Shown: piece after piece, positions 7,980 to 31,060 of the stretch
Layout of the letters: each line of letters begins with the position of its first letter
How positions within the stretch are numbered: position 1 is the stretch's first letter
Origin: a virus
Virus record (IMG/VR): IMGVR_UViG_3300037427_000179
Span: 1-31,060 of that record
Reading direction: 5' to 3' (one strand)
DNA: 31,060 bases
Notes under the pieces: model-generated
Database searches by the model: none
Told to the model about the DNA's origin: nothing
The model's input: the letters and a program-made list of their open reading frames with translations, nothing else
Program-made: the position numbers and the translations under genes

Positions 7980-8005
7980 TAGTCTTACCTAAAGTGAGTT
8001 AATAA

Positions 8006-10246: not shown

Positions 10247-10283
10247 CTTTTTCGTCCTCTATAGAATCCAATTTGTCTATGAT

Positions 10284-10291
10284 TATTTATT
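10284..10291 (-). promoter_or_regulatory. Late promoter motif AATAAATA before gp18
   Basis: Minus strand reads AATAATAAATAATC, with the NATAAATA motif at 10291-10284. It sits in the 81-base gap between the zinc-ribbon gene and gp18, 37 bases before the gp18 ATG. It probably starts the gp18-gp19 transcript. Confidence 0.62.
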
Positions 10292-10327
10292 ATTTGTAGT
10301 GTTTTAATCGGGGAAACAATACATGAA

Positions 10328-10558
10328 CTACCAGTCTGGATAACTCCAGATACCATTATCTTTCTTTCTACTAGATTTAATTCTTTTTATAGTACACCCT
10401 TTACACTCATAAGAATATGATGATGGGAGATGTGTACTTTTCTTATGTGTTAAATAAAAACCATCTATTAGGTTCTTGACACTACCACAGACTCTACATC
10501 TTCTTTCACTCAGTAATAAATCACCAAGTTCAAATTGTTCCTCTAAGTCGAATTCCAT
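10328..10558 (-). CDS. Small zinc-ribbon-like protein
   Basis: A 76-residue protein from ATG 10558. A TTG at 10573 would add five residues but is less likely. Two CxxC pairs, C21-C24 (CRVC) and C52-C55 (CKGC), about 27 residues apart, suggest a single zinc-binding fold. A basic segment follows (KRIKSSRKK), and aromatic residues end the chain. This pattern resembles the zinc part of phage endonuclease VII/HNH-type proteins, but no catalytic HNH residues follow, so a nuclease role is unsupported. It overlaps the nucleotidyltransferase gene by 16 bases. Confidence 0.75.
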   Translation of the reverse strand: MEFDLEEQFELGDLLLSERRCRVCGSVKNLIDGFYLTHKKSTHLPSSYSYECKGCTIKRIKSSRKKDNGIWSYPDW

Positions 10559-10971
10559 TGCTTTAGGATCCAACTACTAGAATTTTGTTTATGAGTTCCA
10601 CCAACCCCAAATGCAAATTGTACTCTAGGATCTTTATCAAACTCATAAATCTCAGGTATATTATCCTGTGTCCTATCTCCACCATTAGCAAATAAGACAT
10701 CATCAAATAGTACTAGAGTCTTTTTAATAAGATCTATAGAACTATCATTCTCATCATTAAATGGTACAGCACTATCAACCATTCTCAATTCTTTAATGAC
10801 TGCCAATCTTTCATCTATAGGCATAAATGGTTTACCTTTCTTTCTAGTTAACCATTCATCAGAATTTAATCCTACGATAAGGATATCTCCTAATTTCTTT
10901 GCTTCTTTAAAGTGTTCAATGTGTCCACTGTGGATAGGGTCAAATCCACCACTAACAATAACAACTCTCAT
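10543..10971 (-). CDS. HxGH-type nucleotidyltransferase (cytidylyltransferase-like)
   Basis: A 142-residue protein of the RfaE/HldE-C and glycerol-3-phosphate cytidylyltransferase superfamily. The N-terminus MRVVIVSGGFDPIHSGHIEHF holds the nucleotide-binding HxGH signature (H14, H17). GLNSDEWLTRKKGKPFMPIDER at about 34-55 is the usual second block, and the end carries GGTHKQNSSSWIL in the place of the ISSTxxR motif. It would transfer a nucleotide from CTP or ATP to a sugar- or polyol-phosphate; the substrate cannot be told. ATG 10971 overlaps the NifU stop as ATGA, which sets the start and argues against a longer N-terminus. Confidence 0.9.
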   Translation of the reverse strand: MRVVIVSGGFDPIHSGHIEHFKEAKKLGDILIVGLNSDEWLTRKKGKPFMPIDERLAVIKELRMVDSAVPFNDENDSSIDLIKKTLVLFDDVLFANGGDRTQDNIPEIYEFDKDPRVQFAFGVGGTHKQNSSSWILKQWNST

Positions 10972-11204
10972 AATACTTGAATAACTCCTACCACATCTGG
11001 TATTTCCATCATTAGTTTCTTTTCTATACCTTGTTTTAATGTCATAACACTCATAGCACATGTCTCACATGCACCACCCAATCTAACTTTTACTATACCA
11101 GTTTCCTCTTCTATTTCTACAAACTGAAGGGATCCTCCATCTGCTTCAATATAAGGAAGAAGTTCTTCTAGAACCTTAATTACATTTTCTTCTGTTAATT
11201 CCAT
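10968..11204 (-). CDS. NifU/Nfu C-terminal-domain Fe-S scaffold protein
   Basis: A 78-residue protein consisting only of the NifU C-terminal (Nfu) domain. It has LLPYIEADGGSLQFVEIE, then VRLGGACETCAMSVMTLKQG with the cluster-binding C46 and C49, and ends IPDVVGVIQVL. Such domains hold a transient 4Fe-4S cluster and hand it to target proteins. Cyanobacterial hosts use an Nfu-type scaffold for photosystem I assembly, so a virus-encoded copy could support host Fe-S supply during infection (inference). It overlaps the 53-residue gene by 10 bases and the nucleotidyltransferase gene by 4. Confidence 0.93.
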   Translation of the reverse strand: MELTEENVIKVLEELLPYIEADGGSLQFVEIEEETGIVKVRLGGACETCAMSVMTLKQGIEKKLMMEIPDVVGVIQVL

Positions 11205-11356
11205 AATCGTGTCAATTGACGAACATCAGATACACCAAATAATGCTTTACAAGTTTGCTCTGCATCTTCTCTTAGATTAGATGGTGAGGTAAACTCTACC
11301 TTCATAAGTCTATTACTCTCTAAGAGTACTTGAGCAGACCATTTAACTGGTTTCAT
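11195..11356 (-). CDS. Small protein (53 aa) between gp17 and NifU-like gene
   Basis: ATG 11356 to TAA 11195 encodes 53 residues beginning MKPVKWSAQVLLESNRLMKV and ending DVRQLTRLWN. The start overlaps the gp17 stop as ATGA and the end overlaps the NifU-like start by 10 bases, which is the packing seen throughout this genome. It is short and has a mixed alpha/beta pattern with one cysteine. I do not recognise a family. Confidence 0.75.
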   Translation of the reverse strand: MKPVKWSAQVLLESNRLMKVEFTSPSNLREDAEQTCKALFGVSDVRQLTRLWN

Positions 11357-13011
11357 TTGTACTCCCACATATATGACAGATCCCCATACTCATCAACCTT
11401 TGCCCATCTGTCACCTTCTTCATCTACAAACTCATCTTCATCATCAACACCATCTAATATAAAACCAAATGGAGCCATATCTTGTTCAATCTGATTCCTC
11501 TGTTCCTCATAGATACGCTTCCGCACATCTGTGTCAGTCATTTCCTTGAAGTAGTCTTGTGCTACTAACCACGCAAATATAACAAGACACATTGCAAGGT
11601 CATCATGGCAACCATCTTCTGCCTCCCATGATTGTTTCTTCTGTACAAAGGTTGTTAGTTCTGCGATAATATCATAATCATTCGTTACTATTTTATCATC
11701 TTCCATTAAAGTTTTCAAGTTAGAACAACCCAACTTCTTAACTGCTGCTGTCATCCTAACACCCATCTGCGTTCTGCTACCAGAAAATCCTGATCCTACT
11801 TGCTGACCATTCCTACCTCTCATAGCACACATAAGAAGATTTTCATATTCTAAATCGTAATTGAGAATAGATGCTACCTGTTCTCCTATATCATTAATCT
11901 CTACTAATACATATGCTTCATTGTACGCTTTTGCTATATCCATTATAATGTTAGGGAATAGCATAGGTTTAACTTCATTATTCCTATACCTTGCCACAGT
12001 CTTATGTGGGAATGTGGTAATATCGAATACTATAAAGCAGGAGTAATCACCATCAATACCTCTAGCAGTATCAACAGTGATAATGTAGTCATTACCTTTC
12101 ACAGGGTTTTCATAAATGAGGAGACCTTTTCCGTTGGTTTGTATTGGATCCTCGAACACGAGATTCCTAAGTTTAGTGACACTAATAAGCGTATCAACAG
12201 ATCCTAAAAATTCACATTCAAACTCAACCTTAAACTGCTGTTCTGATGTGTTCTTAATGGTCTGCTCTTTCCACTTAGCATCTCTACCAGGTACTTCAGA
12301 CCAATGAACCTCAGTAGCAGTGTATTCATTCTTACCCCTTTGTGCATCATGCCAATACCTATAGAAATGGTTCATACCACAAGGGGTAGATACCATTATG
12401 ACTTTCGTTGACTTACCAGAAGTAATAGTAGGGTAAACAGAACTAAAGAATGCTTCTGCGATATGATTTGGGACAAAGGCGAACTCGTCGAGGAAAATGA
12501 TATTGAATGACATGCCTCGGACAGCACTTGCAGATGTAGAAGCTGCCAATATCTTTGATCCATTCTCTAACTCCATTGATCCTTTGTTCCAGGATAAGAT
12601 ACCCTGTTGCATCCACTTAGGCAAGTTTTCATAAGCAGTCTGTAGTCTGCCAAGTAGTTCTCTGGCAGTTGCTGCTTTGTTTGCTAGGATACCTACATTA
12701 ACACTATCATTAAAAACAATATAATGCAAGAGGTATGAAACAGCAGTTGTGGATTTACCAGTCTGCCGAGGCATCTTGCATATATTAAATCTAGACTCGT
12801 GAAAATTTTTAATTAACTTCTCTTGGAAGTCATACATTTTAAATGGTACAAGACCTTCATCCAAAGATACAATTTTAATGTAATTCTTTGCAAAATATAT
12901 TGGGTCTTGTTTACATTTAATAAACTCCTCAACCTGTTTAGCATTAAACTCAACGGTTGTGTTTGCTTTCTTTAGATTGGGATTACCAAGATATATGTCT
13001 TGTTGTGACAT
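11353..13011 (-). CDS. 17: Terminase large subunit gp17
   Basis: A 552-residue protein (T4 gp17 has 610). It is the packaging motor ATPase and headful nuclease. The ATPase domain shows Walker A at about 80-88 (MPRQTGKST) and Walker B with catalytic glutamate at 171-176 (IIFLDE). Motif III follows near 206-212 (IMVSTPCG). The C-terminal RNase H-like nuclease has D314 in IITVDTARGIDGDYS, an acidic residue in VLVEINDIGEQ, and the last acid in GCHDDLAMCLVIFAW. The tail is acidic. ATG 13011 overlaps the preceding stop by one base (TAATG). It docks on gp20 during packaging. Confidence 0.98.
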   Translation of the reverse strand: MSQQDIYLGNPNLKKANTTVEFNAKQVEEFIKCKQDPIYFAKNYIKIVSLDEGLVPFKMYDFQEKLIKNFHESRFNICKMPRQTGKSTTAVSYLLHYIVFNDSVNVGILANKAATARELLGRLQTAYENLPKWMQQGILSWNKGSMELENGSKILAASTSASAVRGMSFNIIFLDEFAFVPNHIAEAFFSSVYPTITSGKSTKVIMVSTPCGMNHFYRYWHDAQRGKNEYTATEVHWSEVPGRDAKWKEQTIKNTSEQQFKVEFECEFLGSVDTLISVTKLRNLVFEDPIQTNGKGLLIYENPVKGNDYIITVDTARGIDGDYSCFIVFDITTFPHKTVARYRNNEVKPMLFPNIIMDIAKAYNEAYVLVEINDIGEQVASILNYDLEYENLLMCAMRGRNGQQVGSGFSGSRTQMGVRMTAAVKKLGCSNLKTLMEDDKIVTNDYDIIAELTTFVQKKQSWEAEDGCHDDLAMCLVIFAWLVAQDYFKEMTDTDVRKRIYEEQRNQIEQDMAPFGFILDGVDDEDEFVDEEGDRWAKVDEYGDLSYMWEYK

Positions 13012-17150: not shown

Positions 17151-17962
17151 TATACATCCTCCTGTCTAGTTGGACTATACTTCTTGGAATCACCAAACAT
17201 AGTAGTTGTCTCACTGAATCCAAAGTCATCCTCAGGTCCAGCACTAACTGGATCTGGAGTAACAGTATACCTCATCTCACGCTTGGCAGTTTCAGGTTTG
17301 TTATCTGCATAGTAATCAACCTGAACTTTCTTGATAAGACCATCTGTAGTATCAGCAACAGGACCGAATAGATATGTCTTAGCAGTAAATTGGAAGGTGT
17401 ACATCAATACTCTTCTAGTTGAAAAGTCTCCTTCATACTCATCAGTAAAAGATATATTTTCTAGTACAACTGGAATATCTCTTTTCTCTCCAATAGAAGA
17501 AATTAAATCTATTGTAAGATTAAATGCTGGTTGGAAAAATGGAAGTATCTGTTCTACAATCTGTAATGCATCATCATTTAACTTAGTCATTACATTAAGT
17601 TCAAACCCTACATTGTAAGGTACTGGAAGATATACTTTCTTTGCTTTCTTATTAGATGGGTCAGTACTATCAACTGCTTTAAATGTTCTAGTTATACTAC
17701 TCTTTCTACTAGGATCATAAGACATACTAGACATCTCAAATGACATCCTAGGTAATGTAATAGCAACTGCTTTACCTAATTCTTCTTGTTGCTCAAGTTT
17801 TGCTAAAAACTTTTGTTTTGGTCCATATATCAATGGAACCTTAGTTTCACTAATAGTATTACCTTGCCTATCATCATGTTGTATATTAATATCATTAAAC
17901 AATGTACCAAAAGCGATAATTGTTTTTCTTAATATTTCGTGATAAAAATAAGTACCTAACAT
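17150..17962 (-). CDS. 15: Tail sheath stabiliser/terminator gp15
   Basis: A 270-residue protein, nearly the same length as T4 gp15 (272). The start MLGTYFYHEILRKTIIAFGT and the central VYLPVPYNVGFELNVMTKLN, followed by VEQILPFFQPAFNLTI, are characteristic. It forms the hexameric ring that caps the finished tail and joins it to the neck. The C-terminal 40 residues are acidic and variable. It overlaps gp14 by one base at the start (TAATG) and gp16 by one at the end. Confidence 0.96.
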   Translation of the reverse strand: MLGTYFYHEILRKTIIAFGTLFNDINIQHDDRQGNTISETKVPLIYGPKQKFLAKLEQQEELGKAVAITLPRMSFEMSSMSYDPSRKSSITRTFKAVDSTDPSNKKAKKVYLPVPYNVGFELNVMTKLNDDALQIVEQILPFFQPAFNLTIDLISSIGEKRDIPVVLENISFTDEYEGDFSTRRVLMYTFQFTAKTYLFGPVADTTDGLIKKVQVDYYADNKPETAKREMRYTVTPDPVSAGPEDDFGFSETTTMFGDSKKYSPTRQEDV

Positions 17963-19620
17963 TAAACTATACCAAATGGATTACTTTCAGTGAAATCTAG
18001 AAGACTATCTGCTTCTGTTTCAAACTCATCATTCATAAAGAATTCATCACCCTGTGCGTGACTACTTAAATCATCAGAATAAGAGAAGACTTGATACCTA
18101 GCAGAAGATGCAGTTCCAGTAATATATTCACCAGATACGAAATCACCTGTATTTATTGAGATTTGTAATTGTCTAGTAGTTGCATTCCAACTCTTAACAT
18201 ATGCTTCAGAACCAGAAGTAGATCCAACTACTCTTTCGTTCAGATGATATGTTCCAATACCTGTGCTTAATGGAGCACTAATAGAAACAGTTGGAGTTGC
18301 CTCATATCCAGTACCAGCATCTGTTAGATATATTCTAAACATATTAGATCCAGACAAGGTTGCAACAGCAGTTGCTTGTGTCTGACCTGCCTTAGCACCG
18401 ACCATAGCACCAGTACCAACAAAAGTAGTAGTGACAGTACCAGTTCCACCTATAGAAGTACCAATACCAATACTAGATGAACCAATAGATGTTACAATAC
18501 CACCACCAGAAAGTGTTACAGCACCAAGAGACTTGAAGTTAATAGTATGACCAATAGCAATATTTGCCATAGTATTAATTCCAACAATCTCCATCATTCC
18601 AGCAGTTGCAATACCAGTAAATTCATACTGCTTATCAACATACTGAGGATGTTGAATGGTAACTATAGGTGGAGAAACATAGTTAGAACCTGGTTGCTGA
18701 ATTCTAATAGAACAAATACCACTATTTGTTAATGAAGCAGTTGCAGCAGCACCTACACCTGGAGTACCAAATCCAATAGTAGGAGGTTCAACATAAGCAA
18801 AACCTGGATTGGTTATAGCAACATAATCTATAGCAGCAAGTTGACCCTTAGTAGTCGTAATTGCTACAACAGCACCAAGAGATGTTGATACACCTGCAGG
18901 AGATGCTTGCACACTAACAATAGGTGGTGTATTGTATCCAGAACCATCATCATTTAATATAACCTTCTGCATTGCACCTGCTAATGCAAATGTATCAACA
19001 GATGCTTTAGCAGTAGATCCAATACCAGCAAGAGTAACAGTAGTTATCATTCCTTCTTCACTCAATCTCTCATCAATACCAACAACATTGGTATCGATAA
19101 TCTCGTCTTGAAGTTGGAAGAGTTCACATTGAAGTTCGTATGTATAGTTCTTACCCAACTGGAAGAAAGGAGATTCAAATTCTATATGCTTAATTTCAAA
19201 TAATCTTTCTCCTAATGGAAACCAAATTAAATCTCCTTCTTTAGGTCTTGTTCCAAAATCAATATCACCATCTCTAGCACCTTGTAAGTTTGTAGAATTA
19301 AATTGAAATGGTGCAATAAAATCCTCGAATCTTTCTCTTGATATTGTTAAAGTAACTTCATTTTGTAAATTAATACCAAACTTAGTCATAACATCACTAC
19401 CTTTAGCATACCCCTCATAGTTGTTTAAGTATGCTTCAATAATATAATTGTCATTAAATTTTGATGATTGCACTTCACCAAGTACATCATCTGTAGTAAT
19501 TTGTTTCCTTGGGATATAGTAAACATCTATGCCATGAATTGACAAGTGCTCATCTACCAGAGACTGTACTAACCTCTGTTCATCAGGTGAACCGTGTTGG
19601 AAAAAAGGTGATATAGGCAT
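17962..19620 (-). CDS. 14: Neck protein gp14 with large beta-repeat insertion
   Basis: A 552-residue protein, more than twice T4 gp14 (256). Residues 1-185 are the conserved gp14 body (SPFFQHGSPDEQRLVQSLVD; GIDVYYIPRKQ; EGDLIWFPLGERLFEIKHIE). The last 35 residues carry the expected C-terminus with FETEADSLLDFTESNPFGIV. Between them, about residues 186-520, lies a Gly/Thr/Ser-rich beta insertion. It has at least four units of the type G-x-G/N-Y-x-x-P-P-x-V/I, near residues 227, 273, 311 and 437. With gp13 it completes the head-tail connector. The insertion may decorate the neck or act as a collar or whisker element. Confidence 0.93.
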   Translation of the reverse strand: MPISPFFQHGSPDEQRLVQSLVDEHLSIHGIDVYYIPRKQITTDDVLGEVQSSKFNDNYIIEAYLNNYEGYAKGSDVMTKFGINLQNEVTLTISRERFEDFIAPFQFNSTNLQGARDGDIDFGTRPKEGDLIWFPLGERLFEIKHIEFESPFFQLGKNYTYELQCELFQLQDEIIDTNVVGIDERLSEEGMITTVTLAGIGSTAKASVDTFALAGAMQKVILNDDGSGYNTPPIVSVQASPAGVSTSLGAVVAITTTKGQLAAIDYVAITNPGFAYVEPPTIGFGTPGVGAAATASLTNSGICSIRIQQPGSNYVSPPIVTIQHPQYVDKQYEFTGIATAGMMEIVGINTMANIAIGHTINFKSLGAVTLSGGGIVTSIGSSSIGIGTSIGGTGTVTTTFVGTGAMVGAKAGQTQATAVATLSGSNMFRIYLTDAGTGYEATPTVSISAPLSTGIGTYHLNERVVGSTSGSEAYVKSWNATTRQLQISINTGDFVSGEYITGTASSARYQVFSYSDDLSSHAQGDEFFMNDEFETEADSLLDFTESNPFGIV

Positions 19621-19621
19621 C

Positions 19622-20443
19622 TTAACCGATCATATCAAGGACTGGAATTTCGTAAGTAGATAGCATTTTTTCTTCTATCTCTCTTATCTCTAGATCACCA
19701 TCTTCATAAATCTGACGACCATTTAATTCTATACCACCAGGGAGTTTTACTCCTTGGAATTTAATGAGGTTCTGACCCCATTGTTTTTTAATCTTTGCTG
19801 TTAAATATCTCTTCAAGAAAGAATCATTATATACTCCACTATAGTTAGAAGGATCCATAATTCTATAACACTCAATAATTATCCAATGTCCATCAGTTGC
19901 AGAAGCCCAATCAATATCCATATAAAGTCTATTGTTTCTCTTGTTGTATCTAATCTGAGTAGATGTAGTCAATAAGAAATTAATATCTTCTAGATATGTC
20001 TTGGTCATAGAATAATTTAGAAGACCATCATATCCCATATTAAAAGCAACATCATTCAAAAATAACTGATACTTCAAGTTAAACATACCATTGCTAAGTC
20101 CACTACTATCAAATTCCATCACCCTTTCTATACCAAGTATAGAATCTGGAACTGTTAGATAACTTTCATTTTCTTCAAATGTACCTGAAGTTGTTGATGT
20201 ACTAGCAATACCTACAGTAAATCCACCACCTCTTGATCTACCTTTTCTAATATCATTCTGTGTAAGTTGATATTTAAGAACTACTTTCTCAACACCATCA
20301 AAATGTCTCTCATAGAAAAACTGTAGAGAGTCATCCATTAAGTCATCAACTTGCTCATCGGCAACATTAATCTCCAAAATTGGAGCACCTAACTGCCTTA
20401 GACAGTAATCTGATAATGTTGCCCTCGTATTTGGTTTTGCCAT
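19622..20443 (-). CDS. 13: Neck (head completion) protein gp13
   Basis: A 273-residue protein (T4 gp13 has 309). The start DYCLRQLGAPILEINVADEQ with VDDLMDDSLQFFYERHFDGV is the typical cyanophage gp13 N-terminus. A conserved middle part has VPDSILGIERVMEFDSSG. The C-terminal part has KKQWGQNLIKFQGVKLPGGI. It binds the portal after packaging and, with gp14, prepares the head for tail joining. It overlaps the preceding giant gene by one base (TAATG), and gp14 begins one base after it ends. Confidence 0.95.
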   Translation of the reverse strand: MAKPNTRATLSDYCLRQLGAPILEINVADEQVDDLMDDSLQFFYERHFDGVEKVVLKYQLTQNDIRKGRSRGGGFTVGIASTSTTSGTFEENESYLTVPDSILGIERVMEFDSSGLSNGMFNLKYQLFLNDVAFNMGYDGLLNYSMTKTYLEDINFLLTTSTQIRYNKRNNRLYMDIDWASATDGHWIIIECYRIMDPSNYSGVYNDSFLKRYLTAKIKKQWGQNLIKFQGVKLPGGIELNGRQIYEDGDLEIREIEEKMLSTYEIPVLDMIG

Positions 20444-23400
20444 TAGAAGAATCCTCCATCAATTGAGTCTGTCCATGTTGGAACTCCACCAGCGTTTGTG
20501 GTCATCACATAGTTAGAAGTAGTTAGGAATCCAACTGTACTTGCTGTACTTACTAGTCTTCCATCTGCTTCAAAGTAACCCATACCATTTGGACCACTGT
20601 ATCCAATACCAGTGCTTCCACCCTGATCTGAACGATAGTATAAACCATTCTTAAATGTTGCATATCCTACGACATGTACATTGTCTTGAATAGTAACTTG
20701 ACCAACTGCAGAATCTAGAACAAGTTCTCCACTATTAGTTTCAATCTTAGTAGAAGAACTACCAGCACCAATCTTAATGTCGGATATTGTACTTACACCA
20801 GTAATAATAGTGTAGTTGAGTGTACTTACTCCAGTTACATTTAGGTTTCTACCTTGAACTTCATCATAGTATACATCACCAATAACATTTAAGTTACCAG
20901 CAACAAATACATCTTGCTGGAAAGTTGCTATACCAACAAAGGTTGAGAAACCAGCAAAGGTCATCTCAGTAGCAATACCAGTTTGAATCCTAGCATTAGT
21001 GATTGCAAAGTTGGTTGCTAAACCAGCATTGATCTTAGCGTCAACTGCATCAATGTTATTAACATCTACGAAGTTAGCAGTTACTACACCAGCAGTTGCT
21101 GTTATAGAAGATCCAATTGCAATTTCACCCTTATAAACACCATTGTCCTTAACAGTAACAATACCAAGCATCTCTGAACCAGATGCTCTAATGATTAATC
21201 TATCACCAATACCAGAAGCTGCTGTATCAGCATACATCAACTTAATAGTCTTATCATCAACTGTTAAGAAGTCACTGCTACCAGCAGCAGTCTGTACACT
21301 AAAGTAATCACTTCTTATTTGAAGTCTACCGTAAGTTCCATTACCATTAGCATGACGGAATTGAGTATGACCTCTATTGTTAAATGCATCAGTGTCAACA
21401 TGTTCAACCGTTAAGTCATCATTAGTACCAATCCTGACCATTACATTGTCAGGAAGATCTGTATGACTATTAATTCCAAGAGGAGCATTAACAGTTAATG
21501 AACCATCACCAATAGTCTGTCCAACTGTAAATGCAGTAGCAAGACCTGTGGCAATCTTAGCATCAACAACATCTAAATTATTAACATCTGCACTACTGCT
21601 AACTGTTACAACACCTGTAGCATTGATTCTCTCGAATCTAGCAGTGTCTAGAACATCTAATCTATCTCTAACAGTAGCGGTTCCAATACCAATCTTCTGA
21701 CTAGCATCAACACGCATTGCCTCTTCATTATCAGTAGAAAGACGGATAAGTCCATCAGTACCACTGTCAGTAAGAGCAACAGATGTATCACCCTTCTGGA
21801 AAGCATCTAACTGAATAACTGTAGCAGTTAAGATACCTAAGACATTTACATCACCAGTGATGTTGATATCTCCAGCACCAGCAGGGTCAATGTTAATATC
21901 ACCTGTTGTAGATTCAATACTATTTCCAGCAATCTGGATGTTACCGAATGTACCACTTGTAGGTGTAACACTACTGCTATCAGTACCATCTGTAATGGTT
22001 AGATTTGATAGTGCCTGAAGACTGGTTACCTGTTGTGAGAATGATACAGTACCATTTTCTTGGTCAACATAGAATGCCTCACCAACACGGAAGTCTCCCT
22101 TCTGGTCAATACTTACATAAGATATGTCACCGTTATTAACTTCTGTAGTCTCGTTAGCTTGTATTGCTAGGTTAGGGTCATTAGTTATATCTGCACCAGC
22201 ACCAACATGGTTGAAGTTGAGAGCAAATAATCTTAATGCAACACCATCACCATCAGCAATTACACCCTTCTGACCGTACTCAACAGCACAACCAACAGAA
22301 CGCATGTCAGCACCAAACTGACTGTAATCTGCTAGGGTTACCTTAGTAGCAGTTCCAATACCACCACCTGCTTGAACGATTCTTATATCCTGATTACGGA
22401 TTACATCATCAGTACATGTAGTAATACCATTAGCACCATTAAAGTCTAAGAGTAAAACAGTATCCTTATCACCTGTTAACTCAGCAGTAGGAGCAGTGAA
22501 GTTTGATGTGTACTTAGCAACTCCATACTCTACTCTAAAGTCATCTACCCAACCTGTAACAGCATTTGATGTACCGTCAAAGTCAGCACCAATTACTAAA
22601 CCTTTAGATGAACCATAATCTGTAGTATCTGAAGTCTTAATACCTCTTTGAGTACCATCAACAAATAGTCTTGTGTCTGTACCATCTCTTGCGATAGCAT
22701 AGTGCTTCCAAGCACCAGTAGCAATACCAGCACCAGATCCAGTGATGGCAGTGGTTGTACCAACTCTTAGGTCAACTTCACCAGCAGCACGGTAAGCAAG
22801 ACTCAAACCATTAGTATCAGATCCATTTGTTCTTAAGTCGAATAGAGTAGCACTAGAGAGTCCAGTTGTATTTGAGTATGCCCAGAATTCAACCGTAAAG
22901 TCTGTGTTAGTACCAAATCCAAGATCACCACTAGAAGGAACACTGATAGAATCATTAGTACCATCTAACTTAAGTGATGCAGTACCAAACTTCTTAACAG
23001 AGGTGTCTAATTGAGCACCATCATTAAATGTTATTGTCTTAGCAGTTCTGGAATTAAGAACTTCAAATCCAGTTTGCTTACCAGTTACCTCTAAGTAAGT
23101 GCCATCATAGTTGGCAACAATAGCAGTACCTAATCCAGTAGTACCATCAGTATCATAAAGAGTAATTGTATTACCAGTACCAACTGTGGTAATACCAGTC
23201 AATCTCAATCTTGTCTTACCAGCAGATGAAATACCAGTAGTTCCAGATACACCCTTAATCGCTTCAGAAGCAAAATAGGTGAATGCGTTTAGGTACTCTA
23301 CACGAGCACCGTTGGTCATTACAACACCCTGACTGTTAGGAACAATGAATGTAACCTCATTGAACAACATCGCTGCCTCAAGCGATCCTGACGCTAACTC

Positions 23401-26400
23401 AGCTCCATCTATATAAGCACCACCACCAGCAATGTAGGATGATGGGTTAGAATCTGCTGAACCATAACCATATGGATCACCTGCAGTAATATTACTTCCT
23501 TTGTTGTATACAGTTACACGCTGAACATAAGGTGATCTAGTGGTAATAGCAATACCAGGTTGGAACTTGAATGCAAAACCTTCGTTCTCTGATGTGTTAA
23601 AGAACATATCAGCAACAGTCAAGTCTTCAACAACTGATCTGTCATTCAATAAGAATGCGTCCTTTTGCTTAGTAGCATCAGTTGGGACAATCTTAGTAGC
23701 ACGAAGACCATTACCCTTAACTGTTACTCCGTTAGGAACATATAATGGGAATGTTTCTTCATAAACACCACCACCAATGTTCAATGTCTCATTAGCTCCT
23801 CTAATATCAGGAGAAACATTAACATTAATATAGAAGGTATCAGCATCTACAACAGTAACAGCAGTTGTTACACCAGAAATAGGATCAGTAGCACGAGGAT
23901 AAGTATGCGAAGTCGCATTGTTATCCATATTACAAGTAAATGATAACGAGTTGTTATCAAGAGTTATCGTATCATTTGTTGATAGTCCATGAGCACCAGC
24001 AAATGATAGAGTTAATCTACCATATTGAGAATCATATTCTGCTGCATTAGGAGACTTTTGGTTACCTGACTCAGCACCACTTTGGACATTAACTGCATTT
24101 GTAGCAGTACCACCATTATAAATGTGATCATACTTATTAGAAATTCTTTGTAATGCGTATCTAACAGTCCTAAATGGTCTGTCATCAGTACGCCCACGAG
24201 AAGGTTCGTTATCATCAACACCATGAGTGTCAACGAACCATACATCATCACCAGGATTGACAGTAGCAATACCAACTTGAGCAGGTTCACGCCAAGTGAT
24301 AGTACCGTTATCATTAGTACTTAATACATGCTGAGTATTAACACCAACAACTCCAGTAGAGTCGTATAGTGATGTTACAAAACCAGATGTTATGAATGCA
24401 GATGTTGCAATACCAACTTGAGTTACAAGGTTAGTAATCGCAAAGTCTGTTGCTAAACCAGCAAGTACCTTAACATCATTGACATCCATGTTGGTGACAT
24501 CAATCGTTGTGATTGATGCAGCAGTACCAACAATATCTGTAATGATACCAGCAGTGATCTTAACATCTTTAAGATCTGCTGTCTCAGTATCGAAAGTTGT
24601 AATTGTAGCATAAGTACCAACCAAAGAGGTAATGATACCAGCAGTAATCTTAGCATTAAGAATATCACCTTCTTGTACATCAAGAGTAGTGATTGAAGCA
24701 GCTGTACCAACTACATCAGTAACTGCAACTCCAACTAAGGATATAGTATCAGCACTTAGAGTTGTTATGTGTGCTGTTGTAATAGTTGCATAAGTACCAA
24801 CTAAAGATGTGACAATACCAGCAGTAATCTTGGCATTAACTATGTCACCTTCTGTAGCATCAATCGTAGTGATTGAAGCAGCAGTACCTACAATATCAGT
24901 TATGATACCTGAGGTAATCTTAACATCTTTAAGATCAGCAGTCTCAGTATCAAAGGTTGTTATTGATCCATAAGTACCAACCAAAGAGGTAATAATACCA
25001 GCAGTAATCTTAGCATCTAAAATATCAGCAGCATCTAAATGTGCTGTACCATCAATGTAAATATCTTGCCATTCCCTATCTTCAGTACCTAGATCATAAG
25101 TATCATCAGCAGCAGGGTTAACTATCTGATTAAATGTCCAAGCATTTCTTGTCAGATCCCAATTAATAGTTTTATCTGTAGTACCTTTAAGAGTTATACC
25201 ACCATCAGAAGCACTAGCATCACTAGCAGATCCAGTAGTAGTTACACCCAGTTCAATGTTTTTATCATTGACTTGTAAGATAGCACTCTGAAGGTAAGAC
25301 ATATTACCTTCAACATTAAGGTCACCCTTAATGAGAGTATCTCCAGTTACAGTTAAAGCACCACCTACTCTTATATCTCTAGTAACATCTACATCAGTAA
25401 TAGTAGCGTATGTACCAACTAATGATGTTACAACACCAGCAGTGATCTTACCGTAAACGGCATCCAGATAATCAAAGTCGGCCTGAGTGTAAGTAACACC
25501 GAAACCAGACAGAGATGTAACAACACCGACTGTAATGTATGCATTAGTTGTAAGACCAACTTCATTGCGAAGATTGGTTATATCAAAGTCTGTTGCTAAA
25601 CCAGCAACGATCTTTGCTTGCTCAACATCAGCATTGATAAAGTCAACACTTTGAATAGTAGCAGCAGTACCAACTTGAACATCAAAGTTTAAGTCATCAA
25701 CATAGGCAACACCATCGATATGGATATTTCTCCATTGTTGATCAGGACTACCAATATCATATGTGTCGTCATCATCAGGGATAAAGTTAGAATCAATGTC
25801 TGCATTGAATACAACATTATCTGTTACAGAATCACCAAGACCAATTGTACCGCCGTTGAATGTTACATTACCAGTGAAGGTAGTTGCACCACCAACTCTA
25901 AGATCATTGGTAATATGTAAATCTTGAGTTGTTGAATAAGTACCAACCCAAGATGTTGAAATACCAGTGGTAATCTTAGCAAAGTTAATATCACCATTTT
26001 CAGAATCAAATACTGTTATCGTTGCATAAGTACCAACTTGAGATGTGATGATACCAGCAGTAATATATGCAGCTTCTATACCAGCACTATTGTTATCAAT
26101 AACTGGAAGAGTTGTAACACCAGTAATATTGACATCACCATCCACATCGAGGAGGGCTGTTGGCGTGGTGGTCCCGATTCCGACCCAACCTTCCTTGTCA
26201 CCAGAAATCCACTTAACAGCACCTGAACCAATAATTAATTGATCATCTTGTGCAGGGTATCTAACATCTTGATCCTTACCAATGATAACATTATTGTTAC
26301 CAGTATTATAAAGACCTGCAGACTCACCAATAGCAATATTATTATCACCAAAAACATTATAAAGAGCAAACGCACCAATAGCAATGTTATTACTCTGGTT

Positions 26401-27786
26401 AGTTGATATACCAGCACCCCATAGTGCTTCTCTACCTATACCAATATTCTGATCGTGATCTTCCTTACCACTATTTGTTGTTATACCTGATCTTATAACT
26501 AAGAATCCATAAGTATCAGTTAATCCAATACTACCAGTGGATAGGTAGATAGCATCACCAACATCAGATAATAAATTATAATCATCCTGACCCTTAACTG
26601 TAAATTGCTTACCAATTAATTTTGCTAAGTGAGCATTAGTACAAGTACCAATGTTAAACGATAGGTTACCAGTAACAGCATTGTTAATTGTTCCTAAGTC
26701 ACCTAATTGGTCAATAGCAATTGCCCAGTCACCACCCTGTAGGTTGGCATAGCTATCTGTAGTACCATAGACTCTGTAATCGTATGGATCACTTGAAAGT
26801 GAACTAGCGTCAGAGAATGAAATGCTACTGACATCACCAGTCTCACCATAAGTGATAACAGACTGAGAACCTAAATCCTGTCCAACCTTATCACCAATAT
26901 AGATGTTATGTGAACCTTCTGCTTCCTGTCCTGCAAAGTTACCAAAGAATATATTAGACTCTGCTTTAGTTACACCACCCTTTTGAAAGGCACTTTGACC
27001 AATAGCAATGTTTCTCTTAGTTTGAGTTCCTAAACCAGCCTGATTACCAGCCCAGTTACCAATAAACATACCCTGACGATCAGTACCGTCAGTTTCTAAT
27101 TTACCTGCTTCTCTACCAATTCTTATTAACTGCGTTCTAAAATCATAGTTGTTCTCAATAGTTGAGATACCACTAATAGTTAAGTTCTTAGTAGTGGTAG
27201 CATGACTTACATTAATCTGCTCAAACTGTGCAGATGTAGAATTGAAATCATTAAATGTTCCACCAACACCAGAAAGAGCACTGATAATACCTACCTTACT
27301 TTGTAGGTTGAGAGTATCAGTAATGTCAGTTACATAAAGAGTAGGGATAGTACCTACACCAGTTATATTCCAGTTTCTTGCATTTACTTCGTCATATGTT
27401 AAATCGCCTGTGACCGCTAAATCTCCAGCGACAGACAAATTACCTGATACCGTGGCTGCAGCACCTACTAAAAGGTCAGTAGCTACACTCCAGGTGTTAA
27501 TCTGCCCTAATGGGTTAAGAATAACCGCCCTAGAACCAACTGGCTTACCAAAGTCAGCAGGGTTATCTGGCAACATTTGAGTGTAATACTCACCACCGAT
27601 TGCTATAGGGGGATTTGTATTACCGTCTGGATGACCAATATATAATTTCTTATAAGACTTACCTGCACCTACATTCGTAGTATCGTAAGTGTATACTAAT
27701 TCACCAAAGGATACACCAGTACCAACGGGTGCTGCGGTAGGAGGCGAAGTTCCTTTAGTCCTTTTTAATAGAATCGTTGCTGACAT
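20443..27786 (-). CDS. Giant modular tail-fibre/adhesin-like virion protein (2447 aa)
   Basis: The frame from ATG 27786 is uninterrupted. The start MSATILLKRTKGTSPPTAAP with a 'GELVYTYDT' strand and a 'KLYIGHPDG' segment is typical of cyanophage fibre proteins. In order: repeats of 'sGnLsVaGDLaVtGDLTYDE' type (about 110-145); YadA-like head units with NIAIG/NIYIG/NVIIG (about 255-310 and 465-505); many 'KITAGIITSLVGTYATITT' units, including six exact 30-residue repeats at 927-1106; a beta-helix-like part from about 1183 (VDTHGVDDNEPSRGRTDDRP); a LamG-like domain at about 1585-1785 (WKHYAIARDGTDTRLFVDGT); and a C-terminus ending DSIDGGFF. It likely binds the host surface. It may be trimeric. 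Confidence 0.85.
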   Translation of the reverse strand: MSATILLKRTKGTSPPTAAPVGTGVSFGELVYTYDTTNVGAGKSYKKLYIGHPDGNTNPPIAIGGEYYTQMLPDNPADFGKPVGSRAVILNPLGQINTWSVATDLLVGAAATVSGNLSVAGDLAVTGDLTYDEVNARNWNITGVGTIPTLYVTDITDTLNLQSKVGIISALSGVGGTFNDFNSTSAQFEQINVSHATTTKNLTISGISTIENNYDFRTQLIRIGREAGKLETDGTDRQGMFIGNWAGNQAGLGTQTKRNIAIGQSAFQKGGVTKAESNIFFGNFAGQEAEGSHNIYIGDKVGQDLGSQSVITYGETGDVSSISFSDASSLSSDPYDYRVYGTTDSYANLQGGDWAIAIDQLGDLGTINNAVTGNLSFNIGTCTNAHLAKLIGKQFTVKGQDDYNLLSDVGDAIYLSTGSIGLTDTYGFLVIRSGITTNSGKEDHDQNIGIGREALWGAGISTNQSNNIAIGAFALYNVFGDNNIAIGESAGLYNTGNNNVIIGKDQDVRYPAQDDQLIIGSGAVKWISGDKEGWVGIGTTTPTALLDVDGDVNITGVTTLPVIDNNSAGIEAAYITAGIITSQVGTYATITVFDSENGDINFAKITTGISTSWVGTYSTTQDLHITNDLRVGGATTFTGNVTFNGGTIGLGDSVTDNVVFNADIDSNFIPDDDDTYDIGSPDQQWRNIHIDGVAYVDDLNFDVQVGTAATIQSVDFINADVEQAKIVAGLATDFDITNLRNEVGLTTNAYITVGVVTSLSGFGVTYTQADFDYLDAVYGKITAGVVTSLVGTYATITDVDVTRDIRVGGALTVTGDTLIKGDLNVEGNMSYLQSAILQVNDKNIELGVTTTGSASDASASDGGITLKGTTDKTINWDLTRNAWTFNQIVNPAADDTYDLGTEDREWQDIYIDGTAHLDAADILDAKITAGIITSLVGTYGSITTFDTETADLKDVKITSGIITDIVGTAASITTIDATEGDIVNAKITAGIVTSLVGTYATITTAHITTLSADTISLVGVAVTDVVGTAASITTLDVQEGDILNAKITAGIITSLVGTYATITTFDTETADLKDVKITAGIITDIVGTAASITTIDVTNMDVNDVKVLAGLATDFAITNLVTQVGIATSAFITSGFVTSLYDSTGVVGVNTQHVLSTNDNGTITWREPAQVGIATVNPGDDVWFVDTHGVDDNEPSRGRTDDRPFRTVRYALQRISNKYDHIYNGGTATNAVNVQSGAESGNQKSPNAAEYDSQYGRLTLSFAGAHGLSTNDTITLDNNSLSFTCNMDNNATSHTYPRATDPISGVTTAVTVVDADTFYINVNVSPDIRGANETLNIGGGVYEETFPLYVPNGVTVKGNGLRATKIVPTDATKQKDAFLLNDRSVVEDLTVADMFFNTSENEGFAFKFQPGIAITTRSPYVQRVTVYNKGSNITAGDPYGYGSADSNPSSYIAGGGAYIDGAELASGSLEAAMLFNEVTFIVPNSQGVVMTNGARVEYLNAFTYFASEAIKGVSGTTGISSAGKTRLRLTGITTVGTGNTITLYDTDGTTGLGTAIVANYDGTYLEVTGKQTGFEVLNSRTAKTITFNDGAQLDTSVKKFGTASLKLDGTNDSISVPSSGDLGFGTNTDFTVEFWAYSNTTGLSSATLFDLRTNGSDTNGLSLAYRAAGEVDLRVGTTTAITGSGAGIATGAWKHYAIARDGTDTRLFVDGTQRGIKTSDTTDYGSSKGLVIGADFDGTSNAVTGWVDDFRVEYGVAKYTSNFTAPTAELTGDKDTVLLLDFNGANGITTCTDDVIRNQDIRIVQAGGGIGTATKVTLADYSQFGADMRSVGCAVEYGQKGVIADGDGVALRLFALNFNHVGAGADITNDPNLAIQANETTEVNNGDISYVSIDQKGDFRVGEAFYVDQENGTVSFSQQVTSLQALSNLTITDGTDSSSVTPTSGTFGNIQIAGNSIESTTGDINIDPAGAGDINITGDVNVLGILTATVIQLDAFQKGDTSVALTDSGTDGLIRLSTDNEEAMRVDASQKIGIGTATVRDRLDVLDTARFERINATGVVTVSSSADVNNLDVVDAKIATGLATAFTVGQTIGDGSLTVNAPLGINSHTDLPDNVMVRIGTNDDLTVEHVDTDAFNNRGHTQFRHANGNGTYGRLQIRSDYFSVQTAAGSSDFLTVDDKTIKLMYADTAASGIGDRLIIRASGSEMLGIVTVKDNGVYKGEIAIGSSITATAGVVTANFVDVNNIDAVDAKINAGLATNFAITNARIQTGIATEMTFAGFSTFVGIATFQQDVFVAGNLNVIGDVYYDEVQGRNLNVTGVSTLNYTIITGVSTISDIKIGAGSSSTKIETNSGELVLDSAVGQVTIQDNVHVVGYATFKNGLYYRSDQGGSTGIGYSGPNGMGYFEADGRLVSTASTVGFLTTSNYVMTTNAGGVPTWTDSIDGGFF
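24469..25008 (-). repeat. Six tandem 90-bp repeats in the giant fibre gene
   Basis: Starting at 25008 and stepping down by exactly 90 bases (25008, 24918, 24828, 24738, 24648, 24558) the codons restart the 30-residue unit ITAGIITSLVGTYATITT plus about 12 residues ending in -K. One unit (24738-24649) begins LVGVAVTDVVGTAASITT and is more diverged. A seventh, much diverged unit starts at 24468. Related single units occur near 25440, 26055 and 25960. Alternating 'SLVGTY' and 'DIVGTA' units suggest a 60-residue higher-order period. Confidence 0.92.
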
Positions 27787-28001
27787 TAGTATTCCCCTCC
27801 ATCAACTGTGGTGGATGGTAAAGTTGTTTGCGTTATAAATTTTGCAGACGCTGAGTCATAAACTAAAAAACTACCATTTGTTAAAGCACTAGCATTAACA
27901 TCGGTTAGTAAAACTAGTTTACCTCCTCCTCCACCGCCCCCTAGGGAGCCGCTGGCAATAACCTTAACTTGGCTGCCAGTACCAATTCTTAAAGATGGCA
28001 T
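27786..28001 (-). CDS. Small fibre-associated protein with poly-Gly run (71 aa)
   Basis: ATG 28001 to TAA 27788-27786. It has seven consecutive glycines near residues 21-27, preceded by SQVKVIASGSLG and followed by KLVLLTDVNASALTNGSFLV, then YDSASAKFITQTTLPS and an ending TVDGGEY. The last part resembles the short beta units and the DGG-aromatic end of the 2447-residue protein. It may be a detached fibre segment or a fibre tip partner. Both junctions are TAATG overlaps. Confidence 0.75.
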   Translation of the reverse strand: MPSLRIGTGSQVKVIASGSLGGGGGGGKLVLLTDVNASALTNGSFLVYDSASAKFITQTTLPSTTVDGGEY

Positions 28002-28336
28002 TACCTTGTTACCCCTGCTCTAACATTGACCATTCCTTCAACAACCTTTACCTTACTAGTGCCGTCTTGCAAAACAACATCGTAAAGGTAGCGACCAGGT
28101 TTAATATCGGTTGTTACGGTAGATGCCATAGAGATTTGGATTTCTCCACCTGTGGCATCAGATACAGTCGAAGCGAAGGCAACATAATTGCTGCTACCTG
28201 ACCACTTACGCAGTTGAGAAGTTACTGTAAATCCTGCTAGATTTAGGGTAGTGTTATTATCGTTATCACCAAGAGAAAATAAATGTTCAAAATCAGTACC
28301 CGATTCAATCTGCAAATTAGCGACATATACTGCCAT
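28001..28336 (-). CDS. Small beta-sandwich-like virion protein (111 aa)
   Basis: ATG 28336. The chain alternates short strands (AVYVANLQIESGTDFEHLFS; FTVTSQLRKW; EIQISMAS; GRYLYDVVLQDGTSKVKVVE) and ends GMVNVRAGVTR. It looks like an immunoglobulin-like baseplate or fibre-attachment domain similar in plan to phage BppU N-terminal domains, but this is a fold guess. No membrane segment. It lies 28 bases below an ACTAAATA motif and heads the string of TAATG-coupled genes leading to gp13. Confidence 0.75.
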   Translation of the reverse strand: MAVYVANLQIESGTDFEHLFSLGDNDNNTTLNLAGFTVTSQLRKWSGSSNYVAFASTVSDATGGEIQISMASTVTTDIKPGRYLYDVVLQDGTSKVKVVEGMVNVRAGVTR

Positions 28337-28536: not shown

Positions 28537-28751
28537 AATTTTGATGTAATTTTTGCGAGCATTTCCTTTATCTCAGAAATTTCTTGTTTCATATTATCCA
28601 AATCTTCTCTGTCCTTAATCCTAGACTGTTTCTCAATTTGCTTCTTAGTTTTTGCTTGTTGATAAGCCGCAAAACCAGAGCTATCAGTATTAATGATAGC
28701 TCCAGTTTTTTCGTCTCTGTACAAGTTTGGATGTCCTTCTACTCTGATCAT
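28533..28751 (-). CDS. Small protein with N-terminal 'GHPNLYRD' head and coiled coil (72 aa)
   Basis: ATG 28751, overlapping the preceding stop as ATGA. The first 30 residues (IRVEGHPNLYRDEKTGAIIN) form a compact beta head; residues about 35-72 form a charged coiled coil (KQEISEIKEMLAKI). The head motif is familiar from hypothetical proteins next to baseplate genes of cyanomyoviruses, from memory only. Role unknown. Confidence 0.8.
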   Translation of the reverse strand: MIRVEGHPNLYRDEKTGAIINTDSSGFAAYQQAKTKKQIEKQSRIKDREDLDNMKQEISEIKEMLAKITSKL

Positions 28752-31060
28752 GCTAATGCCAAAGATCTCATATTCTTAAACACTGGAACTTCTGCTTGAT
28801 TGGTTCCGTTCATTACAACCTTAATCACAAAACCAGTAAAAGGTTCTAGATCATTGATTGTATACTGATACTCTTTGAAATCCTCTCCAGGATTGACTAA
28901 AGCATCAGGACGGCCATCGTTCTTAGACGGATCTAAAACGGTGTCACCAAATCCATCCCCAGTGGTATCGACATTATTTAGATAGCCTGGGAACAGCATG
29001 AATTTCTGATCAGTTTCACTAGCATCTGGTCTAATCACACTATACAGAACCCTGAAGTCAGTAGATGCAGGTCTATATGCATCAAAGACAACTTTTAATG
29101 AGGTTGCTGGTTGTTTAATCTTAATAACCCTAGAGGTATAGTAAGAAGTGTGTGGATCATTAAACAATGCATTAACTCTTGGATCAGTTGAATAATTCTC
29201 GATTGGTTTATTCAATCTATTAGATGTGAATTCCATCTTGACCGTATCCAACATAATCGATGGAGAACTCCAGAATTGACCACCATTGCTTATAGCAAGT
29301 CTAGTAGTTAATGATTTGTTTCTAAAGAGATTAGTTAATCTCGCATTCTCATTAACTTCAGAAGCAACAATTCTAGTATTAGGAACTCTTGTTTGTTGAT
29401 TTAAAACAACATTCTCAAATCCTTTATCTACAAATGATTGCTCATTACCATCAATACTAGTTCCAGTTACGGTTCTAACACTGCAAGTAACAGTATCAGT
29501 TACACCAGGAGTTGTAACATCAATCAATGGTTTGAATGAGTTAAACTGAATATTCTTGGATGCATGGACATGATCTCCACCACCAAAAACATCTGAAGCA
29601 AATGACAACTGAGGTTGACTTAAAGCATTGATATCAGTAGTTCTACCTTCTCTATCAATCTTAATAACAAAGTCATCCATGTTTCTATCTAAAGTAGATA
29701 CATTATGCTCTGTATTAATCTTATTCAATGAGATTCCAGAAAGTTCATACTTTCTAATTTCAGATGCTGCAGAATGAGTAATAGATTGAGTATTGTTTAC
29801 CCCTCTGGTAATACCACTCAAAGTATTGATACCAACAGATGTATAAGAAATAATCTCATTTCCAAGTTGGGCATAACCAGTATTAGCAGCACTAACAAGT
29901 ACTCCTTCAAATACATTGAACCCTGTACTGTCACCAATAGCAATAGCACTAGTTGTAGAGTTAACTACAGTAGATGTTGTTGTTGGTAAAGTATTTGGTT
30001 TAGCACCTGCTATGGAAACTTTGTTACCAGTACCATACATGCCATGACCAAAGTAACCTACTTTAGCATATTCACCAGTGTAAAGGTTACCTGTTGCATC
30101 ATATCTAGTAACATCAAGACCAGAATCAATAGTGGTTCCTGCTTCATGATAGTAGATCACATCAGCAGCACCAGTAAATTCTTGTGCTTGTATATCAGTC
30201 AGATAAAGAGTATCTATTCCTGCAAGGGAACCAATACCTATCCTAACACCAGATCCAGATCCACTCATATCAGCAGTTACAACACCTACAATGTCACCTA
30301 TCTTATACCCTTGACCTGTTTCTAAAACAGTTGCTGCTGTAATTGGTGAAGCACCAGTACCAACAGTAATATCAAGTTTAAGTCCAGAACCTTGTCCTGT
30401 TATAGCAAATGTGTTTACACTAGCAGATGGAGTTCCATAATTGGATCCATTTGTATTAATTCCAATAGCAAGTGGTGAAGTACCTTTCTTAACTGGTCCT
30501 CCAGTATCTTCAATAGTTCCATAACGATAGTTCGCAGAAGCATCACCAACCTTCCTACCAGGAACAAATACAGTTCCGATAAGACCAGCATTAGTAGATG
30601 TGGTTATACCAAGAGCAGCCTTCTTAGGAAGACAATGAATAGGATTACCATTCAATACTGGTAAGATACCATTATTAGGTCTAATTGGAGGATTTTGGAA
30701 TGTAACTACAGCATCAGTTTCAGTAAACTCTGCTCTATACAGTTTGAAGCACATATCTTCAAACTGGCAGGGACTCCATGTAGAAGCATTTTGCGACTTA
30801 AACATAGAACCTAGCATAGTTTGATTACTATACACCCGTCCTGCAGCACTAGGTAAATCCTGTGCATTAAGAGCAGTCTGTCCCATCTCTGCTGTAAAGA
30901 TCTCATAGGTGTTCGTAGGAGCACCTACAATCAATGCATACTCCCCATGAGGTTCCAAGTATACTGGAGAAGGGAAGGTTGCTCTGGTTGGAACTGAAGC
31001 ATCAGTACTAACTGTTATATTTTCGGAATTTAACACCACACGAGCATCAGGAGATACCAA
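28748..31060 (-). CDS. Large virion structural protein, C-terminal 770 residues (5' end outside window)
   Basis: The frame is open at the right edge. The first visible codon is TTG, so the true start is upstream. The visible part begins with a structured domain (PVYLEPHGEYALIVGAPTNT; FEDMCFKLYRAEFTETDAVV). A Gly/Thr-rich repeat part follows, with GSNYGTP and GQGYKIGDIVG units like those in gp14. The rest is a large beta-rich region ending with ITRPD-like strands (DFRVLYSVIRPDASETDQKF) and FTGFVIKVVMNGTNQAEVPV. It is probably a baseplate- or fibre-associated protein by position upstream of the giant fibre. I cannot name the T4 equivalent. Confidence 0.8.
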   Translation of the reverse strand: MVSPDARVVLNSENITVSTDASVPTRATFPSPVYLEPHGEYALIVGAPTNTYEIFTAEMGQTALNAQDLPSAAGRVYSNQTMLGSMFKSQNASTWSPCQFEDMCFKLYRAEFTETDAVVTFQNPPIRPNNGILPVLNGNPIHCLPKKAALGITTSTNAGLIGTVFVPGRKVGDASANYRYGTIEDTGGPVKKGTSPLAIGINTNGSNYGTPSASVNTFAITGQGSGLKLDITVGTGASPITAATVLETGQGYKIGDIVGVVTADMSGSGSGVRIGIGSLAGIDTLYLTDIQAQEFTGAADVIYYHEAGTTIDSGLDVTRYDATGNLYTGEYAKVGYFGHGMYGTGNKVSIAGAKPNTLPTTTSTVVNSTTSAIAIGDSTGFNVFEGVLVSAANTGYAQLGNEIISYTSVGINTLSGITRGVNNTQSITHSAASEIRKYELSGISLNKINTEHNVSTLDRNMDDFVIKIDREGRTTDINALSQPQLSFASDVFGGGDHVHASKNIQFNSFKPLIDVTTPGVTDTVTCSVRTVTGTSIDGNEQSFVDKGFENVVLNQQTRVPNTRIVASEVNENARLTNLFRNKSLTTRLAISNGGQFWSSPSIMLDTVKMEFTSNRLNKPIENYSTDPRVNALFNDPHTSYYTSRVIKIKQPATSLKVVFDAYRPASTDFRVLYSVIRPDASETDQKFMLFPGYLNNVDTTGDGFGDTVLDPSKNDGRPDALVNPGEDFKEYQYTINDLEPFTGFVIKVVMNGTNQAEVPVFKNMRSLALA

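Follow-up and report, generated by a model that had tools for sequence, protein, structure and literature searches.

How does a cyanophage build a very long fibre from several modules, and how would such a fibre be attached to the virion? The build and attachment of fibres in abundant ocean myoviruses are poorly known, and the question is raised here by a stretch of viral DNA of 31,060 nucleotides (the window; positions 1 to 31,060 of IMG/VR record IMGVR_UViG_3300037427_000179), in which one open reading frame (ORF) of 2447 residues stands directly before gp13. The terminase of this phage is nearest to those of Synechococcus phages S-T4 and Sf-CH5 (~80% identity), which places the window among the T4-like marine phages of the cyanophage family Kyanoviridae; the 31-kb record is probably a fragment of the genome. 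We consider it likely that the ORF encodes a virion fibre, expanded and mosaic in form, that belongs to the cyanophage host-recognition cluster, a known set of variable genes lying between VrlC and the neck genes. The class of cyanophage fibres found in this slot is already known; what is new is the expanded variant.

Domain exchange between conserved ends

The frame runs uninterrupted on the minus strand from 27786 to 20443, and more than 20 full-length or partial homologues in IMG/VR share 60-90% identity with it, in agreement with an initial annotation that described a single 2447-residue protein. Among 50,697 phage records, none covers 80% of the fibre length in one place. The gene order VrlC, LtfC-like gene, 71-residue protein, fibre, gp13 and gp14 is kept in dozens of IMG/VR contigs, and the same slot order is found in the cultured phages S-8S56 and S-CAM9. 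In S-T4 and Sf-CH5, the nearest relatives in culture, the genes follow one another in this order too, but the fibre is missing.

Identity is distributed unevenly along the fibre. The LamG domain falls into two allele classes among the relatives: at loci L004, L005, L011 and L015 its core is 46-54% identical and the neighbouring regions are mostly 75-90% identical, and at L006-L009 LamG is mostly 82-98% identical and it is residues 2101-2250 that drop to 8-25%. Residues 600-900 vary independently again along the alignment. One locus (L104) retains the N-terminus, the head and the C-terminus, with no beta-helix or LamG match, and in another (L195), as in phage P-HM1, the fibre frame and the beta-helix/LamG module are two separate proteins. 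We take these jumps in identity, together with the loss and splitting of modules, as marks of domain exchange between fixed ends: judged from the alignments, the stalk, LamG and the segment covering residues 2030-2250 are swapped independently.

In a further relative (L097, positions 8001-12938 and the next ORF), the fibre is split into ORFs of 1645 and 694 residues, the second of which retains the DGGFF end; either a frameshift or a fibre made of two chains might explain this.

A proposed lectin cassette and repetitive shaft

The centre of the protein carries a LamG domain. Pfam Laminin_G_3 (PF13385) matches residues 1608-1752 with an expectation value (E) of 3.7e-17 (63.3 bits, against a cut-off of 27.6), the LamG profile matches the PDB at E=1.5e-14, and structural alignment to concanavalin-like domains gives Z ~18 over 173-181 residues at 2.4-2.7 Å. 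The AlphaFold model of residues 1190-2027, obtained from 57 sequences, has a mean predicted local distance difference test score (pLDDT) of 82 and aligns at Z 15-18 with tailspikes and with enzymes of parallel beta-helix fold; for 7chu, 2pyg, 8iqe and 6c72, 232-241 residues are aligned (Z 16.6-17.9, 3.1-3.2 Å). The parallel beta-helix matches (7chu, AlgE4 and the K2-2 and Fri1 tailspikes) span model residues 9-729 and the lectin matches lie mostly at 391-605, so that the LamG domain is nested inside the helix, for which a right-handed parallel fold is predicted. Both domains had been recognised in the initial annotation; LamG is confirmed, and the helix is supported by the model, which makes it wider (Table 1) than the residues 1180-1350 first assigned to it. 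Sequence searches find no solved structure of such a fibre except for its lectin domain. Toxin receptor-binding domains also occur among the Foldseek matches; we rejected a functional reading of them, the common jelly-roll fold explaining the similarity. A stretch of ~100 residues inserted at the first helix turns is missing in some close relatives, and the same stretch is present in multiple copies in PSSM7_090, a structural protein of 7,124 residues from P-SSM7.

Closer to the N-terminus, the motif N[IV]x[IF]G occurs seven times in residues 225-560 (at 259, 278, 294, 447, 467, 483 and 499); in 2000 shuffles the mean was 0.06 and no shuffle had more than 2. The copies are spaced 16-20 residues apart within each block and are kept in close relatives. 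They had been read as YadA-like head units, and the motif stands; the family assignment does not. Neither the window record nor any of 33 relatives has a Pfam YadA_head (PF05658) match at E<=10, and Pfam and NCBIfam scans for YadA parts of the fibre are empty. Searches of the PDB with phmmer, using the whole fibre or the NIxIG block, return chance matches only, a profile of residues 1-560 returns a single chance match, and no solved YadA head is among them. The NIxIG block is therefore a motif resemblance only. The broader link to autotransporters is weak, since Pfam detects no YadA head, stalk or anchor (the last in whole-protein scans) and the C-terminus is instead the different, conserved DGGFF module. 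Between this block and the helix, the stalk has a lag-30 autocorrelation of 0.33 (shuffle maximum -0.27), and its motifs recur exactly every 30 residues from 926 to 1106; the short leucine/threonine beta units of the earlier description are thus real repeats, although they are I/V/T/A-rich units of 30 residues in which leucine is not prominent. At the very N-terminus, similarity extends to the Melnitz 'tail fiber' and to P-SSM2 PSSM2_118. Mtd_N (PF18454) has no direct Pfam match in the fibre, and hhalign of the N-terminus gives 98.3% and E 1.2e-14 against a six-sequence target set that mixed the Mtd_N-positive S-TIM4 ORF108 with close fibre homologues.

We propose the following arrangement. 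The conserved N- and C-terminal segments would constitute an invariant frame, one or both of them tying the fibre to the virion and also serving folding, and attachment would probably be aided by the co-encoded LtfC-like and 71-residue proteins. The shaft would consist of the YadA-like block together with the 30-residue repeats, and the beta-helix with its nested LamG would be a cassette open to exchange, which most likely serves to bind, and perhaps to cleave, host surface polysaccharide. The ORF, gene order, LamG, 30-residue repeats, homologous ends and independent internal exchange are read from the sequence itself; we infer the presence of the fibre in the virion, the binding of sugar, the anchored end and the site at baseplate or neck. 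A trimeric fibre with a carbohydrate-binding part had been suggested at the outset. The multi-module fibre and a domain of carbohydrate-binding type are well supported by the LamG domain, the beta-helix, the fibre homologues in the same slot and the domain swapping, and trimerisation is plausible.

The slot before gp13 and what it may hold

The fibre directly adjoins gp13, as first noted. That this place would be unusual for a fibre by comparison with T4 is not supported: T4 genes 10, 11, 12 and wac (baseplate, short-fibre and whisker genes) stand immediately before gene 13, in the order 10-11-12-wac-13, and long cyanophage proteins occupy the same position (a structural protein of 2162 residues in Syn19 and one of 2236 in S-TIM4). 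The gene in the gp13 position follows a fibre of 595 residues in S-8S56 and one of 605 in S-CAM9. The variable stretch has been named the 'host recognition cluster', with proteins bearing concanavalin, YadA and Mtd domains in a structural operon (PMC7029224), and the window fibre lies between VrlC and the neck gene gp14, as do the host-recognition-cluster fibres of Kyanoviridae. Its positional counterpart in S-TIM4, ORF108, is described as a structural protein in which mutations accumulate during adaptation to poor hosts (PMC6224464).

These counterparts resemble the window fibre in different respects. S-8S56 and S-CAM9 also have an LtfC-like gene and a small DGG-tailed gene upstream, and the S-8S56 fibre matches both the N-terminus (28% over 218 residues, E 7e-10) and the C-terminus (32%, E 1e-4) of ours; however, the two fibres are about a quarter of its length, and that of S-8S56 lacks a Pfam LamG match and YadA-like motifs. 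P-HM1 places on two proteins what the window has on one chain: PHM1_093, encoded after LtfC and a 73-residue gene, has the C-terminal module and a DGGTF tail, and PHM1_095 ('gp7') has the beta-helix/LamG module at 41% identity. The 'baseplate wedge' protein of ACG-2014f (AAJ63_gp268) shares the beta-helix with nested LamG and the following region at 43-50% identity, but is encoded elsewhere in its genome, in a region with no DGG tail. S-TIM4 ORF108 (named 'YadA domain-containing') and Syn19 GC402 are giant fibre-like proteins directly before gp13 and after VrlC; unlike the window, their regions have no DGG-tailed genes, and ORF108 itself carries Mtd_N. Also directly before gp13, P-HM1 encodes PHM1_104 (L080:16817-22312), a protein of 1832 residues with a subtilase Peptidase_S8 domain (E=5.6e-28) and weak Ig-like matches.

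Because the gene sits exactly where T4 has wac, immediately before gp13 and overlapping it stop to start, the product could be a neck whisker on gp13/gp14, a functional counterpart of T4 fibritin (Wac) whose LamG is incidental or serves environmental sensing; the neck fibres of cyanophage A-1(L) indeed carry a carbohydrate-binding module without host binding (PMC10966104). We regard this as improbable. Whole-protein scans give no Pfam fibritin match, and no sequence or domain similarity to fibritin was detected. The window protein has about five times the length of fibritin and includes a lectin domain, LtfC-like and VrlC genes share its slot, and so strong an exchange of the lectin domain is more in keeping with receptor binding. 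Since the T4 gp10-12 baseplate fibres are likewise encoded beside wac, position does not decide between whisker and fibre. A baseplate wedge protein (gp7/gp10-like), as the names of relatives would have it, is very unlikely. PHROG 13163, 1469 and 19601, all 'baseplate wedge subunit', cover residues 1328-2380, and the P-HM1 and ACG-2014f homologues are named gp7 or baseplate wedge initiator, but those phages have a second, separate gp7 or baseplate-wedge gene beside gp8. Moreover, the match is limited to the beta-helix/LamG module and the region after it, a part that occurs at various loci within various proteins; we therefore judge the name to go with the module and not with the gene position.

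Whether the cassette cleaves polysaccharide is a related matter. The top Foldseek matches are to CBA120 tailspike 2, and the VIA matches include the K2-2 and Fri1 depolymerase tailspikes, AlgE4 epimerase, pectin methylesterase and fucoidan lyase, which would suit an active depolymerase, a tailspike enzyme that degrades host polysaccharide with LamG as its carbohydrate-binding module. A common fold does not show activity, however, and we hold this reading to be doubtful. A fibre of the host-recognition cluster remains our preferred interpretation, with some points weighing against it: the AlphaFold monomer of residues 1-560 is poor (pLDDT 39.5), direct homology with S-TIM4 ORF108 is not shown, the similarity being at chance level (best E 0.038), and database names for the central module are mostly 'baseplate wedge', though this looks like annotation transfer.

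A shared C-terminal tail and the neighbouring genes

The fibre (IDGGFF) and the adjacent 71-residue protein, sp71 (VDGGEY), end in one common signature, [DN]GGx[FY]. We scanned six-frame ORFs of at least 60 residues for the ending [DN][GC]Gx[FY], allowing no more than one residue after it. The 12 occurrences among 970 ORFs from 16 annotated-phage regions are confined to this slot, as are four more among 602 ORFs from 10 further regions (S-CAM9 twice, ACG-2014f and S-CAM7). The same scan finds no DGG tails near the LtfC-like genes of S-SSM7, Bellamy, S-SCSM2R, S-CAM1, S-N03 and S-SM2, and we therefore rejected the idea that every gene after LtfC bears one. In the IMG/VR loci the LtfC-like gene, the 71-residue gene and the fibre almost always occur as a trio, and the 71-residue protein bears the tail just as the fibre does. 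S-SKS1 has a single protein of 159 residues that joins a 71-residue-type N-terminus to the C-terminal module of the fibre (37% over 107 residues, E 8e-15), a 213-residue protein of S-SRM01 carries the module and the tail, and in S-T4 and Sf-CH5 the small tailed gene stands alone, the fibre being absent. The tail is therefore older than the long fibre, or independent of it, and the recurrence of the C-terminal module in small proteins may point to a role in docking or capping. Separately, S-SKS1 has more than 7 kb without an annotated gene between SWZG_00162 and SWZG_00160 (L227:6555-13915), where VrlC is expected; this is probably a missed or broken annotation.

A candidate partner is encoded next to sp71. 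The LtfC-like protein of 111 residues scores 25.5 bits with Pfam LtfC, just below the cut-off of 27, and is matched in 125 phage records, mostly of cyanophages, with or without an adjoining fibre. In phage DT57C, a dodecameric LtfC ring forms the collar and holds fibre chains by strand donation, and in the LtfA-LtfC pair of DT57C/T5, as in the window, a small LtfC-type beta protein is encoded beside the fibre (PMC10713586). Unlike the window phage, DT57C and T5 are siphoviruses, and docking there is by the fibre N-terminus. It is conceivable, though we would not expect it on balance, that the [IVL][DN]GGx[FY] tail of the fibre and sp71 is a docking peptide for one common virion partner (for example, the LtfC-like ring or the neck), with sp71 occupying or priming the site and a fibre of any length plugging in by its C-terminus.

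Upstream of the fibre lie the 71-residue gene, the LtfC-like gene, two small genes and the C-terminal part of a VrlC-like protein; downstream follow gp13 (PHROG head-tail adaptor Ad2), gp14 and gp15. Each of the three junctions between the LtfC-like gene and gp13 is a TAATG overlap, which fits coupled expression. In gp14, residues ~198-323 match part of P-SSM7 PSSM7_090 as well as PHROGs for giant structural and baseplate proteins of virions; it looks as though the neck protein had taken up a domain of fibre type. The tail sheath gp18 (8006-10246) has 746 residues, against 669 in P-HM1 gp18, and matches its 496-position PHROG profile end to end; the greater length suggests inserted domains.

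Table 1. Coordinates of the fibre, its modules and neighbouring genes in the window (residues are those of the fibre).
Feature	Residues	Position	Strand	Basis
gp14 neck protein		17962..19620	-	Pfam T4_neck-protein E=3.5e-27
gp13, head-tail adaptor Ad2; overlaps fibre stop (TAATG)		19622..20443	-	phrog_211 E=2.4e-42
Mosaic fibre protein (probable), whole ORF, 2447 residues		20443..27786	-	frame, homologues, conserved gene order
C-terminal pentapeptide DGGFF, signature [DN]GGx[FY]		20446..20460	-	tail comparison
Conserved C-terminal module, ends IDGGFF	2344-2447	20446..20757	-	also in S-SKS1 and S-SRM01 proteins before gp13
Independently exchanged segment	2030-2250	21037..21699	-	alignment of relatives
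Predicted beta-helix, part 2	1794-1918	22033..22407	-	model, fold matches
LamG/concanavalin A-like lectin domain nested in beta-helix	1579-1793	22408..23052	-	Pfam, PDB profile, structure
Predicted parallel beta-helix, part 1	1198-1547	23146..24195	-	model, fold matches
Insertion in first beta-helix turns	approx. 1225-1328	23803..24114	-	comparison with relatives
Stalk, exact 30-residue tandem repeats (KITAGIITSLVGTYATITTFD...)	926-1115	24442..25011	-	repeat analysis
NIxIG repeats, block 2, spacing 16-20 residues	447-505	26272..26448	-	motif
YadA-head-like NIxIG repeats, block 1	259-305	26872..27012	-	motif; without Pfam YadA_head match
N-terminal fibre segment, possibly Mtd_N-like	1-101	27484..27786	-	common to S-8S56, Melnitz and P-SSM2 fibres; P-HM1 by eye
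sp71, 71 residues, ends VDGGEY; TAATG start/stop overlap with fibre		27786..28001	-	same C-terminal signature
LtfC-like beta-sandwich protein, 111 residues, candidate fibre-docking/assembly protein		28001..28336	-	PHROG 3304 E=2.3e-28
VrlC-like structural protein, C-terminal 770 residues, cut by window end		28748..31060	-	phrog_358

The main points of note are the exchange pattern and the shared C-terminal tail, the tail being the most unusual trait of the fibre. The slot amounts to a natural experiment, with no fibre in S-T4 and Sf-CH5, a mini-protein in S-SKS1 and S-SRM01, a fibre of 600 residues in S-8S56 and a lectin-bearing fibre of 2400 residues in the window, and these variants are mostly within reach of cultured relatives. 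If docking through the shared tail is real, it would be a C-terminal, modular system of fibre attachment. The tail makes the plugging of cyanophage fibres into the virion directly testable.

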